Assembly (NCBI GenBank): GCA_021775555.1
Contig: JAJFHP010000075.1
Location: 1-35,778, forward strand
Direction of reading: 5' to 3'
From: Hyphomicrobiales bacterium
GTDB lineage: Bacteria > Pseudomonadota > Alphaproteobacteria > Rhizobiales > Methyloligellaceae
Length of the DNA stretch: 35,778 bases
The position numbers and the translations under genes are program-made. The notes beneath the pieces are model-generated. The model was given only the letters and a program-made list of their open reading frames with translations, did no database searches and was not told where the DNA came from. Below are positions 2,219 through 14,650 of the stretch, one piece after another; the stretch's first letter is position 1, and each line of letters starts with the position of its first letter.

Positions 2219-3199
2219 GTGTTAATCATGCGTACGGCGGCGGCGGGGCGCATACATAACGGATGGGCGGTGTTGGCATTATTGATGGTGCTTGCAGCGT
2301 CCCTGTCAGGTTGTGCCGGTGGCACGTTGAGCGGTGTGTTCAGCGGGTCCGGTAGCAGTGCATCCTCCAACAACCTGGCGCCGGTTTCCTTTGCCCCCAT
2401 CATCGGACCCCCCGCAGCGATCGGGGATCAACTCACTGCCCAGCTGGTCACAGCCGCGCAGCAGAAAAGCATTCCCGTTGTGACCGACAAGAGCAAGTCC
2501 TCGACCTACACGGTCAAGGGCTACCTGGCGCAGTCCAACGAGCGTAAGGCGGAAAAATTCTCCTACATCCTGGATGTCACCGACAAATCGGGAAAACGCG
2601 TACACCGCATTCTCGGCGAAGAAGCCGTGCCCTCCAAACCGGGCGCCAAGCCGTGGACATCCATCAATCAGACCGCAATGCAGAAGATTGCCACCAAGAC
2701 AGCAACTGATCTTGCCACCTGGCTTCCGACACAAGGCAGAGGAGGAGCGAGAACCGCCACACCGGTCAGCGCTCCTGCTTCACGAAAGCCACCACCCGGC
2801 ACCACATCTCGGCGCACCGCATCGACCAGCAGCAGCAATACACGCATCGCAGCACTGGTTCCTCCGGTGTCGGGCGCACCAGGTGATGGCAGAACATCGC
2901 TGACCAATGCTCTTCGCAAGAGGCTGGGCGCCAGGGGTGTGCAAATTGCCAGTACGAGCGGAAAGGGCGTGTACAAAATCAACGGCAAGGTGAAAATGGG
3001 TCCCGCTCCCGGCGGCAATCAAAGGGTCAAGATCGAATGGCGGCTTTTGAGCCCAACGGGCAAGGATCTCGGAGCCGTAACGCAGCAAAGCGATGTCCCC
3101 AAGGGGTCGTTGGACAAGGTCTGGGGCCCGGCTGCACTGTCTGCCGGTGACGCGGCGGCAAGTGAAATTCTGAAGCTCATCAAGAAGAACCAGAGCTGA
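2219..3199 (+). CDS. Predicted lipoprotein with two similar domains, function unknown
   Basis: A 326-residue predicted lipoprotein. The N-terminus has a hydrophobic helix (about residues 16-30) ending in the lipobox LSGC, with lipidated Cys32. After a Ser/Gly-rich stretch, a first domain (about 56-170) and a second (about 208-323) share the same pattern. Each has a (T/V)Y-x-(V/I)-(K/N)G strand, a strand ending in a Gly-Lys turn (DKSGK, SPTGK), a VP-(S/K) segment followed by a Trp, and a closing alanine-rich helix. They are joined by a Ser/Thr/Pro/Arg linker (about 172-205). The start is GTG, favoured over an ATG nine bases on because GGAG at 2206-2209 sits nine bases before the GTG. No enzyme motif is visible. 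I do not recognise a characterised family. Confidence 0.8.
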   Translation: MLIMRTAAAGRIHNGWAVLALLMVLAASLSGCAGGTLSGVFSGSGSSASSNNLAPVSFAPIIGPPAAIGDQLTAQLVTAAQQKSIPVVTDKSKSSTYTVKGYLAQSNERKAEKFSYILDVTDKSGKRVHRILGEEAVPSKPGAKPWTSINQTAMQKIATKTATDLATWLPTQGRGGARTATPVSAPASRKPPPGTTSRRTASTSSSNTRIAALVPPVSGAPGDGRTSLTNALRKRLGARGVQIASTSGKGVYKINGKVKMGPAPGGNQRVKIEWRLLSPTGKDLGAVTQQSDVPKGSLDKVWGPAALSAGDAAASEILKLIKKNQS

Positions 3200-3323
3200 C
3201 CGCATACCTTGCCCACAAGCATCTGACCGATCCGGTTTACACACCTTATACGCGTTGCTACAACCTGCCCTCGCGTGGGTACTGGATGTGCCTGGGACCA
3301 CACGATAGACTGGGGAACAACAC

Positions 3324-4256
3324 ATGAAACTGGTCGCGGGCAATTCCAATCGGCCTCTGGCAGAGGCCATTGCGGCCTATCTCAATATCCCTCTGGCGAA
3401 ATGCTCCGTGCGCCGCTTCGCGGACATGGAAATTTTCGTCGAAATTCTTGAAAATGTGCGCGGCGAGGACGTCTTCGTCATCCAGTCCACATCTTACCCG
3501 GCCAATGATCACCTGATGGAACTGCTCATCATGATCGATGCGCTGCGCCGGGCATCTGCCAAGCGGATCACCGCCGTGGTCCCCTATTTCGGCTATGCCC
3601 GTCAGGATCGCAAGGCGGGGCCTCGCACGCCGATTTCCGCGAAGCTCGTCGCCAATATCATCGAACAGGCGGGTGCTGACCGGGTTCTTACCGTTGATTT
3701 ACATGCTGGCCAAATCCAGGGCTTTTTCGATATTCCGACCGACAATCTTTATGCCCAGCCGGTGATGGTCGAGGACATCAAGAAAAATTTCAAAATCGAC
3801 AAGCTGATGGTTGTATCGCCCGATGTCGGCGGCGTGGTGCGCGCACGCGGGCTGGCAAAACGCTTCGACGCCCCGCTCGCCATTATTGACAAGCGCCGCG
3901 AACGCGCCGGCGAGTCAGAGGTGATGAATGTGATCGGCGAGGTCGAGGGTTATTCCTGTATCCTGGTGGATGACATAGTGGATAGCGGCGGAACCCTGTG
4001 CAACGCGGTGGATGCCCTGCTCAAGGGAGGCGCGACCGATGTGAGCGCCTATATCACCCACGGGGTACTTTCAGGAGGCGCGGTCGCCCGTATTTCATCG
4101 TCAGAAATGAATTCTCTCGTCATTACGGACTCCCTCCTGCCCACCGAAGCGGTACGCGTGGCGCAGAATGTCCGTGTCCTGACCATTGCGCCCTTGCTCG
4201 GTGAAGCCATCGCGCGTACCAGCGGAGAGAAATCTGTATCGAGTTTGTTTGACTAG
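3324..4256 (+). CDS. prs: Ribose-phosphate pyrophosphokinase
   Basis: A 310-residue PRPP synthetase, which transfers pyrophosphate from ATP to ribose 5-phosphate. PRPP feeds purine, pyrimidine, NAD, histidine and tryptophan synthesis, and also the Apt reaction encoded at 9496-10032. Family motifs are intact: [16 protein letters not shown] near the N-terminus, [18 protein letters not shown] in the ATP-binding flexible loop region, [14 protein letters not shown], and the PRPP loop [18 protein letters not shown] ribosome site lies at 3312-3316, eight bases before the ATG. Length is standard for class I enzymes. The gene stands alone between the lipoprotein gene and rplY, with 124 and 146 bases of non-coding DNA on either side. 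Confidence 0.97.
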
Positions 4257-4402
4257 GCGCGCGCATCCAGCCATTGCCAGCGGGGCCTGTGAGCGCTATA
4301 AGCGCGCCAGAAATCTACGCACCGCAGCTAAAGAGCAATCCTGGCGCGGGCAGGAACAGCGGGCCGGACATGGCCCTGATCTGAAAAATCTGGAGGATTG
4401 AG

Positions 4403-5089
4403 ATGGCCGAGGTCAGCGAGATCAAAGCTGCGGCACGTAATGAATTTGGCAAGGGTTCGGCCCGTGCCACGCGTCGTGAAGGCCGCGTTCCCTGTATCAT
4501 CTATGGTGAAAAGGACGACCCGCAGGCCATTACCGTGGAGGATAAGGAACTGTGGATGCATGTCCGTAAGGGCCAGTTCCTGAATACCATTTACACGCTT
4601 GACATAGACGGCAAAGCGCAACGCGTGATCCCGCGCGAAATCCAGCTTCATCCGGTGCGCGATGTACCCCTCCACGTAGACTTCTTGCGCCTTGGAGAAG
4701 GCGCCACCGTCACCGTTGAAGTGCCGGTTAATTTCCTCAATGAAGAGGAATCTCCAGGTCTGAAGCGTGGTGGTGTGCTGAACATCGTGCGTCACACTAT
4801 TGAATTGCGATGCCTCGCCGAAGCCATTCCTGAAGGCCTCAGTGCCGACCTTGCCGGTCTCGATATTGGTGACTCACTTCACGTGTCGGCGATTTCATTT
4901 CCGGATGGTGTTGAGCTGACCATTGCCGACCGTGACTTCACCGTTGCGACAGTCGTGGGCCGCATGGCCGAGGTTGTCGATGAGGTCGAGGAAGAAGACC
5001 TTGAGGGTGAAGAGCTTGAAGGCGAAGAGGGTGAAGACGTCGAGGGCGAAGGCGAAGACGGTGACGAAAAAACCGAGGCCGACGAGTAG
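4403..5089 (+). CDS. rplY: 50S ribosomal protein L25/general stress protein Ctc
   Basis: A 228-residue long-form L25 (TL5/Ctc), which binds 5S rRNA in the large ribosomal subunit. The N-terminal L25 domain (about 1-95) has the typical ARNEFGKGSARATRREG start and RVIPREIQLHPVRDVPLHVD core. The C-terminal Ctc domain (about 96-190) follows, with ESPGLKRGGVLNIVRH. The last 35 or so residues are an extremely acidic Glu/Asp/Gly tail, commonly seen in alphaproteobacterial L25 proteins. GGAGG at 4391-4395 sits seven bases before the ATG. The neighbouring pth gene is a usual partner of rplY. Confidence 0.96.
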   Translation: MAEVSEIKAAARNEFGKGSARATRREGRVPCIIYGEKDDPQAITVEDKELWMHVRKGQFLNTIYTLDIDGKAQRVIPREIQLHPVRDVPLHVDFLRLGEGATVTVEVPVNFLNEEESPGLKRGGVLNIVRHTIELRCLAEAIPEGLSADLAGLDIGDSLHVSAISFPDGVELTIADRDFTVATVVGRMAEVVDEVEEEDLEGEELEGEEGEDVEGEGEDGDEKTEADE

Positions 5090-5860: not shown

Positions 5861-6988
5861 ATGGGCTTTAAATGCGGGATTGTCGGACTACCCAATGTGG
5901 GCAAATCCACCTTGTTCAACGCGCTGACGCAAACGGCCGCCGCCGAGGCAGCCAACTACCCTTTTTGCACCATCGAGCCCAATGTAGGCGAAGTGCAGGT
6001 GCCCGACCCCCGGCTTGATAAAATTTCAGCAATCGTCAAACCCCAGGCGACCATCCCGACACGTCTCACCTTCGTGGATATTGCCGGGCTGGTGAAAGGC
6101 GCATCAAAGGGAGAGGGACTCGGCAACAAGTTCCTGGCACATATCCGCGAGGTTGACGCCATCGCTTATGTACTGCGCTGTTTCGATGACCCTGACGTCA
6201 CCCATGTTGACGGGCGTATCGACCCGCTGGCGGATGCGGAGACCGTTGAGACGGAATTGATGCTCGCCGATATGGAAAGCCTGGAGAAACGCATTGAGCC
6301 ACTGGAAAAGAAAATCCGGGGTCAGGACAAGGAGGCGAAGAAAACTCTTGAACTGGTGACATCAGCGCTTGAATTGCTGCATGAGGGAAAACCGGCACGG
6401 ACCGCATTGGTGGCTGAAGAAGACCGGCGACTGTTCCAGGCGCTCAACCTGCTCACGTCCAAACGCGTGCTCTATGTCTGCAATGTCGACGAGGCATCTG
6501 CAGCGACTGGCAACGCCTACTCGAAACAGGTGGAAGAAAAGGTCGCTGAAACAACAAAAGCCGCAAGCGGTTCAGACCCCAAACCAGCCGAAGTGGTTGT
6601 AATTTCCGCCAGGATCGAGGCCGAACTGGCCCAGTTGGACCATGAAGAACGCACAGAATATCTGAGTGAGCTCGGGCTTTCAGAAGCAGGGCTCGACCGG
6701 CTCATTCGTACAGGCTTTCACCTGCTCGATCTCATTACCTATTTCACTGCCGGTGAAAAGGAAGTCCGGGCCTGGACGGTGCCGCTAGGCACCCCTGCCC
6801 CAAGGGCTGCTGCCGTCATCCACACGGATTTCGAAAAAGGATTTATCCGTGCGGAAACCATTTCCTATGACGACTTCATCACGCTCGGCGGCGAACAGGC
6901 GGCGAAGGAAGCCGGCAAGATGCGGCTGGAGGGCAAGGAATATATCGTCAAGGATGGCGACCTGCTGCATTTCCGTTTTGCCACCTGA
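5861..6988 (+). CDS. ychF: Redox-regulated ATPase YchF (Obg-family P-loop protein)
   Basis: A 375-residue YchF/OLA1 protein. This universal translation-associated P-loop NTPase prefers ATP to GTP. The P-loop GLPNVGKST is at the N-terminus and [19 protein letters not shown] is the switch II (G3) region. The nucleotide-specificity site reads NVDE instead of the GTP-specific NKxD, as expected for YchF. A coiled-coil stretch ([17 protein letters not shown]) lies mid-protein. The C-terminal TGS domain begins near [18 protein letters not shown]. It is slightly longer than the usual 363 residues. It is 21 bases downstream of pth, completing an rplY-pth-ychF cluster. Its stop overlaps the next start by one base. 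Confidence 0.96.
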
Positions 6989-10940: not shown

Positions 10941-11522
10941 CTACTTCTTGACCTCAATATAGAACAGCGCCCACGGCCAGCCATGCTCTTCTTCTTCGGG
11001 AACCTTTACCGCTGAAGGTGTGTGTATCATCCATACGGGGCCCTTGTCGCCAATCCCAAACGGCTTGCCATCCACACGGGTTGCCAGAATCCAGTCTTTT
11101 GCGGCTATTTGCTCAGCCGTCAAATCAACCGGAAAACCATCAAGTGCGCGAGTCTGTATCGAAGCCCCCTCTGCGCCAAGCGCTTTGAGGACATCACGCA
11201 ACAGCGGCCCCTGAAGTGTTACCGGAGTGGAATATTGCGGCGGCTGGCATTTTATTTCCGTGATGGGAAAATCTTCAAGCATGGTGATGTCGAAAGAAAA
11301 GGCGCGTTTGAACTCGATCTCGTGAAACGCCATGAACCCGTCGCGTTTCGGGTCTGATGCGCCGCGGTTTGTCCGGGAAATATCGCCGGCGAAGGTCAGG
11401 ATTACAGCGCCTTTGGGCTTGCCCGCCCCACCGGCGGCATGAACTTGGCTGCCAAGCGCCAGTGAAAGGGCTGAAGCGCCCATCGACGTCAGAAGGGACC
11501 GCCTGGACCAGGAAAACAACAT
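10941..11522 (-). CDS. Tat-exported SUOX-fold (molybdopterin-binding-domain-like) protein
   Basis: A 193-residue periplasmic protein. The leader SWSRRSLLTSMGASALSLALG has a twin-arginine motif at residues 6-11 and a probable cut after VHA (about residue 29). The mature part resembles the short oxidoreductase molybdopterin-binding domain seen in COG3915-type proteins: a FDITMLEDFP segment, VTLQGPLLRDVLKALGA, and a C-terminal WMIHTPSAV...HGWPWALFYIEV. Cys92 (EIKCQPPQYSTPV) falls near where the molybdenum-ligating Cys lies in YedY/MsrP-type enzymes, but the protein is much shorter. A GGTGAGG ribosome site precedes the ATG. It is the first gene of the mtn operon. Whether it binds a cofactor or is catalytic is unknown. 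Confidence 0.7.
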   Translation of the reverse strand: MLFSWSRRSLLTSMGASALSLALGSQVHAAGGAGKPKGAVILTFAGDISRTNRGASDPKRDGFMAFHEIEFKRAFSFDITMLEDFPITEIKCQPPQYSTPVTLQGPLLRDVLKALGAEGASIQTRALDGFPVDLTAEQIAAKDWILATRVDGKPFGIGDKGPVWMIHTPSAVKVPEEEEHGWPWALFYIEVKK

Positions 11523-11707: not shown

Positions 11708-12307
11708 ATGACGCAGATCGATTACTATTTCACGCTCAATTCGCCCTGGTCCTATATGGGCGGGGAACGCCTGGCAAAAATGGCAAAAGAGCATGGCGCC
11801 ACCGTCAATACCAAGCCGGCCCAGATGGGTGTGATTTTTGCGCAAACCGGTGGACTGCCACTCCCCAAGCGCGCCCCTGCGCGCCAGGCCTATCGTCTGG
11901 TCGACATGAGGCGCTGGGTGGAACACCTCGACATTCCCTTTGTACAGGAGCCTGAGTTTTTCCCTCATGATGAAACCGAGGGAGTGCGGCTGGTTATTGC
12001 TGCCCAGGAAACCGGTGGAAATGCGCTTGCGCTCGCCACCGAGATTGGCCGCTCGCTATGGGAGTTGAACCAGGACCCAGCAGACGCCAGTGTTCAGAAT
12101 GAAGCCGCTGCCCGCGCCGGTCTCGATACGGAAGTGCTGCGCGGTGCATTGTCGCTCGAAGACGCTGCTGGCATCTGGACGAAAAACACCGAGGAAGCCC
12201 TGGCTCGAGGCTCCTTCGGAGCGCCATCATATGTTATCGACGGTGAGGTTTTCTGGGGCCAGGACCGTTTGGATTTTGTCGAGCGTAAGCTCGCCGGGCA
12301 AAGCTAA
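11708..12307 (+). CDS. 2-hydroxychromene-2-carboxylate isomerase-like DsbA-family protein
   Basis: A 199-residue thioredoxin-fold protein of the DsbA/GST-kappa group. The active-site region NSPWSY (residues 11-16) has Ser12 in place of the DsbA cysteine, as in glutathione-dependent 2-hydroxychromene-2-carboxylate isomerases. A helical insert (about 60-140) follows. The cis-proline region is FGAPSYVIDG, ending in the usual FWGQDRLDFVE. It has no signal peptide, so it is cytoplasmic. The start ATG has GGAGA about seven bases upstream. Bacterial genomes often hold several such genes without a naphthalene pathway, so the physiological substrate is open. A paralogue lies at 30326-30976. Confidence 0.88.
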   Translation: MTQIDYYFTLNSPWSYMGGERLAKMAKEHGATVNTKPAQMGVIFAQTGGLPLPKRAPARQAYRLVDMRRWVEHLDIPFVQEPEFFPHDETEGVRLVIAAQETGGNALALATEIGRSLWELNQDPADASVQNEAAARAGLDTEVLRGALSLEDAAGIWTKNTEEALARGSFGAPSYVIDGEVFWGQDRLDFVERKLAGQS

Positions 12308-12380
12308 CGCATCCAAAATCTCATGGGCGTCGTTACTGGAAGGCATAGAAGCGATTCAAACGCCTTTTCAGGAGGAACTT

Positions 12381-12710
12381 ATGTCAAAACGCACACTTAC
12401 TCTTTCGGTTCTCGCTGCCTCACTCATGCTGGCTGGACCTTCTTTCGCCATGGACAAGAAAAAAGACGCCATGATGAAAGAGGAGATGATGAAAAAAGAA
12501 GCCATGATGAAACATGACGCCATGGTGAAGGACTGCGCCGCCATGAAAAAAGACGCCATGATGAAAAAAGATGCCATGAAAAAAGACACCATGATGTCGA
12601 AAGATGACAAGATGAAACATGATGCCATGGTGAAGGATTGCGCCGCCATGGAAAAAGCCGCCATGATGAAGGATGGCATGAAAAAAGACACCATGATGAA
12701 GAAGAACTGA
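12381..12710 (+). CDS. Exported methionine-rich MxKDx pentapeptide-repeat protein
   Basis: A 109-residue secreted protein starting at the ATG at 12381, preceded by AGGAGG at 12370-12375. A signal peptide (residues 1-23, cut after SFA) leaves an 86-residue mature chain built from imperfect MxKDx pentapeptides. Twenty-two of the 86 residues are methionine, and most others are Lys, Asp, Ala or Glu. A longer unit is duplicated: MKHDAMVKDCAAM occurs at 43-55 and 78-90, each copy with one Cys (52 and 87). This matches the known MxKDx repeat family (TIGR02953), whose function is unassigned. Exported MsrB and MsrA genes follow directly, suggesting the methionines are a reversible oxidant sink. Copper binding is the main alternative. 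Confidence 0.88.
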   Translation: MSKRTLTLSVLAASLMLAGPSFAMDKKKDAMMKEEMMKKEAMMKHDAMVKDCAAMKKDAMMKKDAMKKDTMMSKDDKMKHDAMVKDCAAMEKAAMMKDGMKKDTMMKKN

Positions 12711-12768
12711 CCCGAGCTCCCTGAGACGCTGGCGGGCTGGTTTTAAACTGAGGCGGCCGGCCAGCACC

Positions 12769-12800
12769 AAGGCCCCGCCCCGGCGGGGCCTTTTCATTTT
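12769..12800 (+). terminator. Rho-independent terminator after the MxKDx gene
   Basis: A very GC-rich inverted repeat, AAGGCCCCGCC at 12769-12779 with GGCGGGGCCTT at 12782-12792, runs into TTTTCATTTT (12791-12800). The arms leave almost no loop, so the inner pairs must open. It lies 58 bases after the MxKDx stop and 114 bases before msrB, so the methionine-rich gene can be transcribed separately from the Msr pair, with some read-through possible. Confidence 0.8.
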
Positions 12801-12913
12801 CGGCCAAGCTGGGCCATACTCCCCCCAACCATACATGCATCCAAAGTCTTCTCCCGTGCGTTTCTGTTTGTAGAAGACAATGATCGGCCCCGACCCCCAG
12901 GAGGACTTTAGGC

Positions 12914-13420
12914 ATGGATCAGACAAAGAGACATTTTTTGCACTTACTTGGCGCTGGCGCCGTGCTTGCAATGGCAGGAGCCAGCAGCCTCATGACAGGA
13001 GCAGGCAACGTGATGGCCGCAACCATTACCAAACTCAAATTGAGCGATGCTGAGTGGCGCAAGCGCCTAAGCCCTGCGCGCTATAACATCCTGCGCAAGG
13101 AAGGCACAGAGCGTGCTTTTTCCAGCCCCCTGGATAAAGAGAAGCGTGTCGGGACTTTTCACTGTGCGGGATGCGACCTGGCGCTGTTTGACAGCGAGAC
13201 AAAATTTGACAGCCGCACCGGCTGGCCGAGCTTTTTCCAGGCTCTCTCAGGGCACGTTGAAACCAAGACGGATTTCAAACTCATTTTTCCGCGCACTGAG
13301 TATCACTGCGCGCGCTGCGGCGGGCATCAGGGCCACATCTTCAACGATGGACCCAAGCCCACCGGCAAACGCTATTGCAACAATGGCCTTGCGCTGACCT
13401 TCAAGCCAAAATCGGCCTGA
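12914..13420 (+). CDS. msrB: Exported peptide-methionine (R)-S-oxide reductase
   Basis: A 168-residue MsrB, reducing the R epimer of methionine sulfoxide in proteins. The N-terminus (about 1-35) is an export signal. TKRHFLHLLGAGAVLAMAG resembles a Tat leader with KR in place of RR, and a cut near NVMA is likely. The domain is complete: zinc site CAGC at 84-87 and CARC at 132-135, GWPSF at 103-107, GGHQGH, and catalytic Cys155 in KRYCNNGLAL. Most MsrB proteins read RYCxN-S here, so the Asn-Asn-Gly is slightly divergent. GGAGGA at 12899-12904 precedes the ATG. It is followed at 53 bases by an exported MsrA. Confidence 0.93.
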   Translation: MDQTKRHFLHLLGAGAVLAMAGASSLMTGAGNVMAATITKLKLSDAEWRKRLSPARYNILRKEGTERAFSSPLDKEKRVGTFHCAGCDLALFDSETKFDSRTGWPSFFQALSGHVETKTDFKLIFPRTEYHCARCGGHQGHIFNDGPKPTGKRYCNNGLALTFKPKSA

Positions 13421-13473
13421 ACGGAAAGCGCGAGCATCAGATCAATCACGATAAAACGGACTGGAGTCCCCCC

Positions 13474-14097
13474 ATGCCCCGTTCACTGTATATGACTATT
13501 ACCGCCTTGATGGCGGTCCTGTTTACCGGATTTGCAGCCCCGACTTATGTGGAAGCGAAAAGCAAGGTTGCGGTCTTTGCCGGTGGCTGTTTCTGGTGCG
13601 TAGAATCAGATTTCGACAAAGTGCCCGGTGTCCTCAGTACAACCTCCGGCTATATCGGTGGCAGCGCCAAGACCGCGAGCTACAAAACAGTGTCGGGTGG
13701 CGGTACGGGACATTATGAGGCGGTGAAAATCGTCTACAACCCGGACAAGGTGAGCTATGACCGGCTGCTGCACGTGTTCTGGCGCAGCGTCGACCCGACT
13801 GATGCGGGCGGTCAGTTCTGTGACCGGGGCGCCAGCTATAAAACAGGTGTGTTTGTCGCCAACGATGCCGAGCGGAAAATTGCACTGGCATCAAAGAAGA
13901 AGGCCTCGTCCGCCCTGGGAAAAACCATCGTCACACCGATCGTCAAAGCGGGTGCTTTCTATAAGGCGGAAGGCTATCACCAGAATTACTACACTCGAAA
14001 TCCTGTCCGCTACAAAGTCTACCGGTATGGCTGCGGGCGTGATGCAAAAATCAAATCCTTATGGGGCAGCCAAGCTCACGCCGGCATCAAGCACTGA
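13474..14097 (+). CDS. msrA: Exported peptide-methionine (S)-S-oxide reductase
   Basis: A 207-residue MsrA, reducing the S epimer of methionine sulfoxide. I chose the ATG at 13474, with GGAG at 13463-13466 seven bases upstream. The resulting N-terminus (MPRSLYMTITALMAVLFTGF and on to VEA at 28) is a clear signal peptide, which longer upstream starts would spoil. The catalytic motif GGCFWC is at 37-42 (Cys39), and a likely resolving Cys187 sits in YGCGRD. TGHYEAVKIVYNP, FWRSVDPTDAGGQFCDRG and KAEGYHQNYY are all conserved. Together with msrB it covers both sulfoxide epimers outside the cytoplasm. How reducing power reaches the pair is not encoded here. Confidence 0.94.
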   Translation: MPRSLYMTITALMAVLFTGFAAPTYVEAKSKVAVFAGGCFWCVESDFDKVPGVLSTTSGYIGGSAKTASYKTVSGGGTGHYEAVKIVYNPDKVSYDRLLHVFWRSVDPTDAGGQFCDRGASYKTGVFVANDAERKIALASKKKASSALGKTIVTPIVKAGAFYKAEGYHQNYYTRNPVRYKVYRYGCGRDAKIKSLWGSQAHAGIKH

Positions 14098-14242: not shown

Positions 14243-14650
14243 ATGACCCTGAATGAGCACATCGCCAACGGTCCTGCCTGGGTATATGCTTGGGTCATGT
14301 GGATGGGTGTCATCAATATGGCTGCCATTCTGTTTCTTGTGCGCTGGAAAGATAAAAAGCTCCGCTTTGGCTATATCGAAGCCGCAGCCATTCTTGCCGT
14401 CCTTGTACCAATGGCGTTGTTTATGGAGTGGCTGTTCGCAAAAGTCGGGTATGTCCGGCTGCTTGGTTTGCCTCATGTCCTGTTCTGGACGCCGCTGGCG
14501 ATTTATTTGTGGACGCGTCTCAAGCATCACCCGCAAAAATCAATCTTTGGCATCTATTTGAGGGTCATTCTTGCGACAATCGTCATATCTCTTCTCATCG
14601 ATTACACAGATGTCGTGCGGCACCTGATGGGTGACGGCGCTCTAAGTTAG
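14243..14650 (+). CDS. Small four-helix membrane protein, function unknown
   Basis: A 135-residue protein with four likely transmembrane helices at about 12-34, 44-65, 73-92 and 101-123, separated by short basic loops (RWKDKK, RLKHHPQK). No heme-binding histidine pairs, CxxC pair or transporter signature is obvious. I do not recognise the family. A GGTGAAG ribosome site lies just upstream of the ATG. The gene stands after the msrBA hairpin and ends 73 bases before the convergent end of petC. It could supply electrons or anchor proteins for the periplasmic Msr system, but this is only suggested by position. Confidence 0.7.
   Translation: MTLNEHIANGPAWVYAWVMWMGVINMAAILFLVRWKDKKLRFGYIEAAAILAVLVPMALFMEWLFAKVGYVRLLGLPHVLFWTPLAIYLWTRLKHHPQKSIFGIYLRVILATIVISLLIDYTDVVRHLMGDGALS

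Follow-up and report, generated by a model that had tools for sequence, protein, structure and literature searches.

The locus at 12381-14097 of the window (the whole stretch of 35,778 nucleotides of Hyphomicrobiales DNA analyzed here) probably encodes an MrpX-like methionine-redox shield of the periplasm, in which thiol-dependent MsrB and MsrA stand in place of MsrP/YedY and the genes for an MxKDx repeat protein, MsrB-MsrA, and a DUF1223 protein belong to one stress regulon. This reading is built on gene identities, a common upstream motif, and a recurring gene neighborhood, all of which can be read directly from the DNA. The window's genome is an assembly of 76 contigs (3.54 Mb, 97.5% complete).

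Genes and signals of the locus

The locus and its immediate setting contain the following features:

10941-11522, minus strand: exported protein; the profile of its orthologues resembles small pterin-binding proteins
11708-12307, plus strand: DsbA-family gene (PF01323)
12309..12334, plus strand: promoter-like motif GCATCC-N16-CGTT, 46 nt 5' of the MxKDx start codon
12381-12710, plus strand: MxKDx repeat protein (109 amino acids; TIGR02953), Met-rich and predicted to be exported; proposed methionine sink (MrpX-like)
12769-12792, plus strand: predicted intrinsic terminator between the MxKDx gene and msrB (10-bp stem, -20.3 kcal/mol, T-rich tail)
12837..12862, plus strand: second copy of GCATCC-N16-CGTT, 51 nt 5' of the msrB start codon
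12914-13420, plus strand: msrB, peptide-methionine (R)-S-oxide reductase, predicted to be exported by a Tat-like KR signal (TIGR00357, PF01641)
13474-14097, plus strand: msrA, peptide-methionine (S)-S-oxide reductase, predicted to be exported by a Sec-like signal (TIGR00401, PF01625)
14243-14650, plus strand: small membrane protein P0004 (135 amino acids) with no Pfam or NCBIfam match

The initial annotation had described an exported MxKDx protein followed by a terminator and by MsrB and MsrA with export signals, and the profile scores, the hairpin, and the N-termini bear this out. The export signals of all three proteins were judged by our own hydrophobicity scoring and by eye rather than with a trained predictor. 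If cleaved after SFA, the mature MxKDx protein would have 86 amino acids, with 22 Met, 24 Lys, and 17 Asp/Glu. TIGR02953 (penta_MxKDx) scored 45.7 bits against the annotated protein, above the cutoff of 41; the same gene reached only 32.5 bits in a six-frame search of the genome. The statement that this family lacks an assigned function is contradicted by the link between Brucella bcrX and HOCl resistance (PMC8315932) and by an MrpX homologue described in an MsrPQ-like locus of uropathogenic Escherichia coli (PMC8550376).

MsrB matched TIGR00357 with 143.9 bits (cutoff, 113.05) and PF01641 with 151.2 bits, and MsrA matched TIGR00401 with 178.2 bits (cutoff, 108.1) and PF01625 with 190.3 bits. 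The MsrA active-site motif GGCFWC is invariant in 7 of 7 aligned sequences. MsrB has five cysteines in all (C84, C87, C132, C135, and C155), all of them conserved without exception in the 8 orthologues aligned; we take the four in the two CxxC motifs to be of the zinc type and the remaining one to be catalytic, and with one catalytic cysteine, reduction would need a thiol from outside. The N-terminus of MsrA appears Sec-type. That of MsrB, TKRHFLHLLGAG (from 12914-12940), was compared with the Tat consensus, which carries RR, and looks Tat-like with KR in its place; all 8 aligned orthologues, which come from the genus and from G012, a genome of another genus in the same family, have K5, R6, and F8. 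KR-x-F thus recurs in the MsrB signals of these genomes, and RR is found in MxKDx-linked MsrB proteins of other families. The gap between msrB and msrA is 53 nt, and the two genes are probably transcribed together. Elsewhere, the genome encodes one more MsrB (C21) and one more MsrA (C4), both with N-termini that are not signal-like, so that the exported pair is additional.

Among the genes of the window, none encoding an MsrP/YedY molybdoenzyme with its membrane heme protein adjoins the MxKDx gene. The genome does carry an MsrP-like gene on another contig that could do the repair, the sole PF00174 match above the cutoff. The protein encoded at 10941-11522 was considered as a YedY-type reductase and rejected: its Pfam matches lay below the cutoff, and a profile of five orthologues matched small pterin-binding proteins of a periplasmic type (7kos, E = 2.5e-18; also 7rkb, 7kom, and 7kp2) and not a full molybdoenzyme, so it was not counted as MsrP. 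A single-sequence structure model of this protein (pLDDT 31) was useless. Its orthologues adjoin the locus in G002, G004, G005, and G012. P0004 was likewise dropped as a component of the system, as it recurs only in G005 among the compared loci.

A motif common to MxKDx, msrB, and a DUF1223 gene

Eight genomes of the genus were compared, together with G012. The MxKDx gene and msrB-msrA occur together in G000, G001, G004, G005, G006, and G012, and also in G002, whose MxKDx gene is broken by a run of N. G007 (97% complete) has kept the MxKDx gene and the motif with no msrBA adjoining, and the one MsrB-like match in that genome belongs to the cytoplasmic type; G003 (80% complete) has msrBA with no MxKDx gene adjoining. 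These two decoupled genomes indicate that the link is not obligatory. Flanking gene order, judged by eye, is largely conserved in the genus, and synteny there is by itself weak evidence.

The motif GCATCY-N16-CGTT was derived from aligned upstream regions of the MxKDx genes and afterwards found 5' of msrB. The window holds exactly 2 copies, compared to a mean of 0.17 in shuffled sequences, of which 0 of 100 had two or more. An exact copy precedes the MxKDx gene in 7 of the 7 genus genomes in which its start is seen (G000, G001, G002, and G004 to G007) and precedes msrB in 4 of the 7 with an exported MsrB (G000, G003, G005, and G006), being absent there in G001, G002, and G004. In G012, the motif 5' of the MxKDx gene is altered, as we read the alignment. 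G005 and G006 have a near-identical terminator hairpin in the same position, the hairpins of G001 and G012 are only weak, and G004 has none. A terminator and a second motif thus go together in G000, G005, and G006. In G001 and G004, there is no clear terminator and only the one motif, as expected if msrB is transcribed from the MxKDx promoter there. The initial annotation had proposed that the terminator allows separate expression levels; the two units are not uncoupled by it, given that the motif of the MxKDx gene is repeated 5' of msrB.

The motif is bipartite, with a spacer of about 16 nt and a CGT-type -10 element; it resembles ECF promoters, recurs in the genus, and by its form may be an ECF-type promoter. 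The window's genome has 20 exact sites, compared to 5 for the reversed pattern, and most of the 20 are not 5' of a plausible gene start. Besides the MxKDx gene and msrB, the sole convincing upstream site belongs to a distant gene for an exported DUF1223 protein, which is preceded by the motif in 4 of the 8 genus genomes (G000, G003, G005, and G007). The extended pattern GCATCY-N16-CGTTNYY has 39 sites in the genus, compared to 5 for the reversed-pattern control: 7 before MxKDx genes, 4 before msrB, 4 before DUF1223 genes, and 24 elsewhere. Thirty of the 39 were inspected through their loci, and two more (msrB of G000 and MxKDx of G001) were already known; among the 24 sites elsewhere, 17 were inspected, and 14 of these fall within frames of more than 200 codons. 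Among the exact sites of the window's genome, two others (L302 and L303) lie within 100 nt of an open frame and were not counted as regulon sites. The common motif before MxKDx, msrB, and DUF1223 suggests that these genes are probably coregulated as a small stress regulon.

No regulator gene was seen at any of the 20 exact sites in the window's genome. SigF/NrsF was rejected as the regulator, as the genome has no NrsF and the motif differs from GTAAC-N16-CGAA. EcfG-type promoters, found at 2 of the 98 MxKDx loci described below and in 13 of 2,561 control windows, showed no enrichment worth following, and a sigma-70 scan returned one promoter-like site, inside msrA, with 1.4 expected.

The DUF1223 protein matches PF06764 with 238.5 bits (cutoff, 30.7), is predicted to be exported, and carries a CxxC motif (CSSC). 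We know of no function for DUF1223, for which a structure (2axo) has been solved; the protein matches that structure with an E value of 2.1e-47. The fold class of DUF1223 is described as thioredoxin-like (PMC3091736).

MxKDx neighborhoods beyond the genus

TIGR02953 matches were collected from 69 of 397 genomes of the order (E values up to 1e-3) and from 11 of 385 genomes of the class and 37 of 398 of the phylum (E values up to 1e-6). Leaving out the window's own, this gave 98 distinct matches, taken with 12-kb stretches (shorter at contig ends) that total 1.13 Mb from 94 genomes and, by our own count, 34 families. Many of the weak matches are doubtful as MxKDx proteins and were kept in the denominator of 98.

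MsrA and/or MsrB lies near 19 of the 98 matches, always within 3.2 kb, in 11 of the 34 families (L084, L092, L093, L097 to L101, L103, L107, L109, L110, L118, L120, L125, L147, L158, L169, and L172). The test of a conserved neighborhood, set in advance with the initial annotation, therefore did not refute the proposal. The functional link that had been drawn from gene order alone gains from this recurrence and from the motif before both transcription units, and it is tempered by the 79 of 98 loci with no MsrA or MsrB neighbor. From the density of MsrB in 101 relatives (0.41 per Mb), 0.49 of the 98 loci would be expected to have an MsrB gene, and 15 were observed, 3 of them from the window's genus (12 without it); as the loci are not independent, we place the weight on the spread over families. 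Twenty 20-kb controls, drawn from 20 of these genomes, contained neither Msr nor DUF1223 genes, a weak bound, as they total only 400 kb.

The linked loci take several forms. L099, L109, and L110 have the arrangement of the window, and L120 and L125 pair the MxKDx gene with msrA. L084, L097, L103, and L158 combine the MxKDx gene with a response regulator, a sensor kinase, and an exported MsrA-MsrB fusion, and the fusions were confirmed. Six loci of family f16 carry MxKDx, cytochrome b, molybdoenzyme, and MsrA genes with a convergent MsrB gene. L169 has ECF and NrsF genes, an MxKDx gene, a FecR-like gene (below the cutoff), MsrB, a DsbD_TM/thioredoxin-like gene, and MsrA; the DsbD_TM and thioredoxin-like protein, encoded at 2835-4538 on the minus strand between the exported MsrB and MsrA, would be a ready-made electron path. 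L147 is a weaker case, with MsrB 2.4 kb away on the opposite strand. So is L118, where a protein of 311 residues that looks exported and bears a Met-rich tail (near 6001-6105) is closely followed by an exported MsrA; sinks may also take the form of such tails on larger proteins. By our own scoring, the linked Msr proteins have signal-like N-termini except for the MsrA of L092, for which our script found no start and whose gene call has a hydrophobic N-terminus. A cytochrome b/molybdoenzyme set of the MsrPQ kind had no match in 12 of the 19 Msr-linked loci. Across all 98, an MsrPQ-like set is present in 35, and neither Msr nor an MsrPQ-like set is present in 51.

On a quick MsrB tree (64 of 118 rows kept, with two of every three genome-contig rows left out), linked MsrB proteins fall in at least three separate places defined by well-supported branches. 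Parsimony gave seven changes, three of them forced by such branches; seven is an upper limit, as G002 (L129) was labeled unlinked despite its MxKDx start being present. From the side of MsrB, a Met-rich neighbor was found at 0 of the 80 closest GTDB MsrB loci (many of them short, most cyanobacterial) and at 2 of 20 exported-MsrB loci of the order, both in the window's own family, so that exported MsrA and MsrB clearly have other tasks as well, and MxKDx loci recruit them. The MsrB of L169 was also run as a query against plasmid records (226 records).

DUF1223 genes lie near 10 of the 98 MxKDx matches in five families, nine of them at 0.9 kb or less and the tenth at 4.5 kb, and the order DUF1223-MxKDx-MsrA was seen twice. 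L096, L108, L114, and L178 hold DUF1223-MxKDx pairs with Msr genes not nearby. A SigF-like motif (GTAAC-N15-17-CGAA) lies upstream of 19 of the 98 MxKDx matches, compared to 9 of 2,561 control windows, which ties the wider family to published regulation.

Proposed function, alternatives, and known systems

In the reading we favor, the Lys/Asp/Met protein would be exported and its methionines would take up an oxidant, for example HOCl or chloramines. Exported MsrA would then reduce the S sulfoxides and exported MsrB the R sulfoxides of this protein. Both transcription units and the DUF1223 gene would probably make up one small stress regulon under a putative ECF-type sigma factor. Cytoplasmic thioredoxin would supply the electrons by way of a DsbD/CcdA-type membrane protein (the window's genome encodes two, neither in the window), with DUF1223 as a possible carrier. 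A narrower version, in which MxKDx, exported MsrB/MsrA, and DUF1223 form a molybdenum-free shield in one ECF regulon and DUF1223 is the periplasmic thiol partner of MsrB, is possible and is put forward only tentatively.

The alternative with the most in its favor is that exported MsrA and MsrB serve general envelope repair, with the MxKDx protein acting as an oxidant sink of its own within the same regulon rather than as their dedicated substrate. Many genomes encode an exported MsrB with no MxKDx gene nearby, G003 and G007 each have one without the other at the locus, and in Neisseria and Haemophilus, an MsrAB of the periplasm or outer membrane is described as repairing envelope proteins in general (PMC3526765, PMC9404787). 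We nevertheless consider this rather unlikely, as Msr genes are enriched at MxKDx loci in 11 of 34 families as fusions, singles, and pairs, and as the linked MsrB proteins are not one lineage.

Methionine-rich stretches of other proteins bind Cu(I) and Ag(I), and the Met/Lys/Asp protein could accordingly be a copper or silver buffer, with the Msr genes repairing metal-driven methionine oxidation. The weakest TIGR02953 matches do include stretches in larger proteins, of which L175 looks multicopper oxidase-like by eye. Yet the recurrent partners in the linked loci that we looked through are Msr, MsrP-like, ECF/NrsF, two-component, and DUF1223 proteins, and the homologous Brucella operon is HOCl induced (PMC8315932), which makes a metal buffer very unlikely. 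It is less likely still, to the point of being hardly credible, that a single family happens to have inherited this gene order and that the motif is fortuitous. Conserved flanking genes in the genus and the exact motif sites away from plausible gene starts would fit such an origin, but the same association appears in families of other orders and classes, the motif stands before both units with 0 mismatches at a similar distance in several genomes, and the reversed pattern is far rarer in the genus. The MrpX-like shield with MsrB and MsrA as its repair enzymes thus remains our preferred reading.

If it is correct, the use of sacrificial methionines does not depend on the molybdoenzyme MsrP, and thiol-driven MsrA and MsrB have been taken up repeatedly, single, paired, or fused, and with at least three modes of control (the GCATCY-N16-CGTT motif, SigF/NrsF, and two-component systems). 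MxKDx proteins would then be markers for periplasmic methionine redox systems, exported Msr enzymes would gain a likely natural substrate, and a testable role could be proposed for DUF1223.

The principle is already published, both for MxKDx/MrpX-type peptides with MsrPQ and for exported MsrA/MsrB in two perchlorate islands. As far as our searches reach, the MxKDx-Msr locus without a molybdoenzyme, the two-component/MsrAB-fusion arrangement, and DUF1223 as a candidate thiol partner are new; a search that most subscription papers lay outside turned up no account of the motif, of an MsrAB fusion with MxKDx, or of DUF1223 in such a setting.

The locus, with its proposed exported, Met-rich sacrificial sink and the periplasmic methionine sulfoxide reductases that would restore it, resembles Azospira suillum MrpX with YedY1/YedZ1, but in A. 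suillum the enzyme is a molybdoenzyme that draws on the quinone pool under the control of SigF/NrsF, whereas the window has MsrA and MsrB in a genome without NrsF (PMC8315932, PMC4623255, PMC8550376). The set sigF/nrsF, yedYZ, and mrpX is described as a methionine-cycling system, and msrA and msrB, both predicted to be exported, are reported from the perchlorate islands of P. militaris MP and D. hydrogenophilus LT-1 (PMC4623255). Those islands share predicted periplasmic MsrA and MsrB with the window; according to the same account, the Msr genes there are additional to a stress set that includes sigF/nrsF, yedYZ, and mrpX, whereas the window locus has no YedYZ. A further known system is BcrXQP of Brucella melitensis with BcrS/AbcS, which has an MXKDX repeat protein (BcrX), a methionine sulfoxide reductase, and an ECF-form promoter (GTAACC-N16-CGAA for BcrS); bcrX and bcrQP are induced by HOCl and contribute to HOCl resistance, and BcrX was proposed to be a sink re-reduced by BcrPQ (PMC8315932). 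It differs in its MsrPQ-type reductase and in the letters of the -35 and -10 elements. The C3564-C3568 genes of uropathogenic E. coli, with a two-component system, MsrPQ-like genes, and an MrpX homologue, share with L084, L097, L103, and L158 the combination of two-component system, Met-rich protein, and methionine sulfoxide reductase, which in our loci is an MsrA-MsrB fusion instead of an MsrPQ-like enzyme (PMC8550376). Neisseria MsrAB/PilB with DsbD and TlpA is likewise a thiol-type Msr outside the cytoplasm; it is fed through DsbD, its gene is under the control of an ECF factor according to a title in the reference list of that report, and, unlike at our locus, no Met-rich sink protein is described there (PMC3526765).
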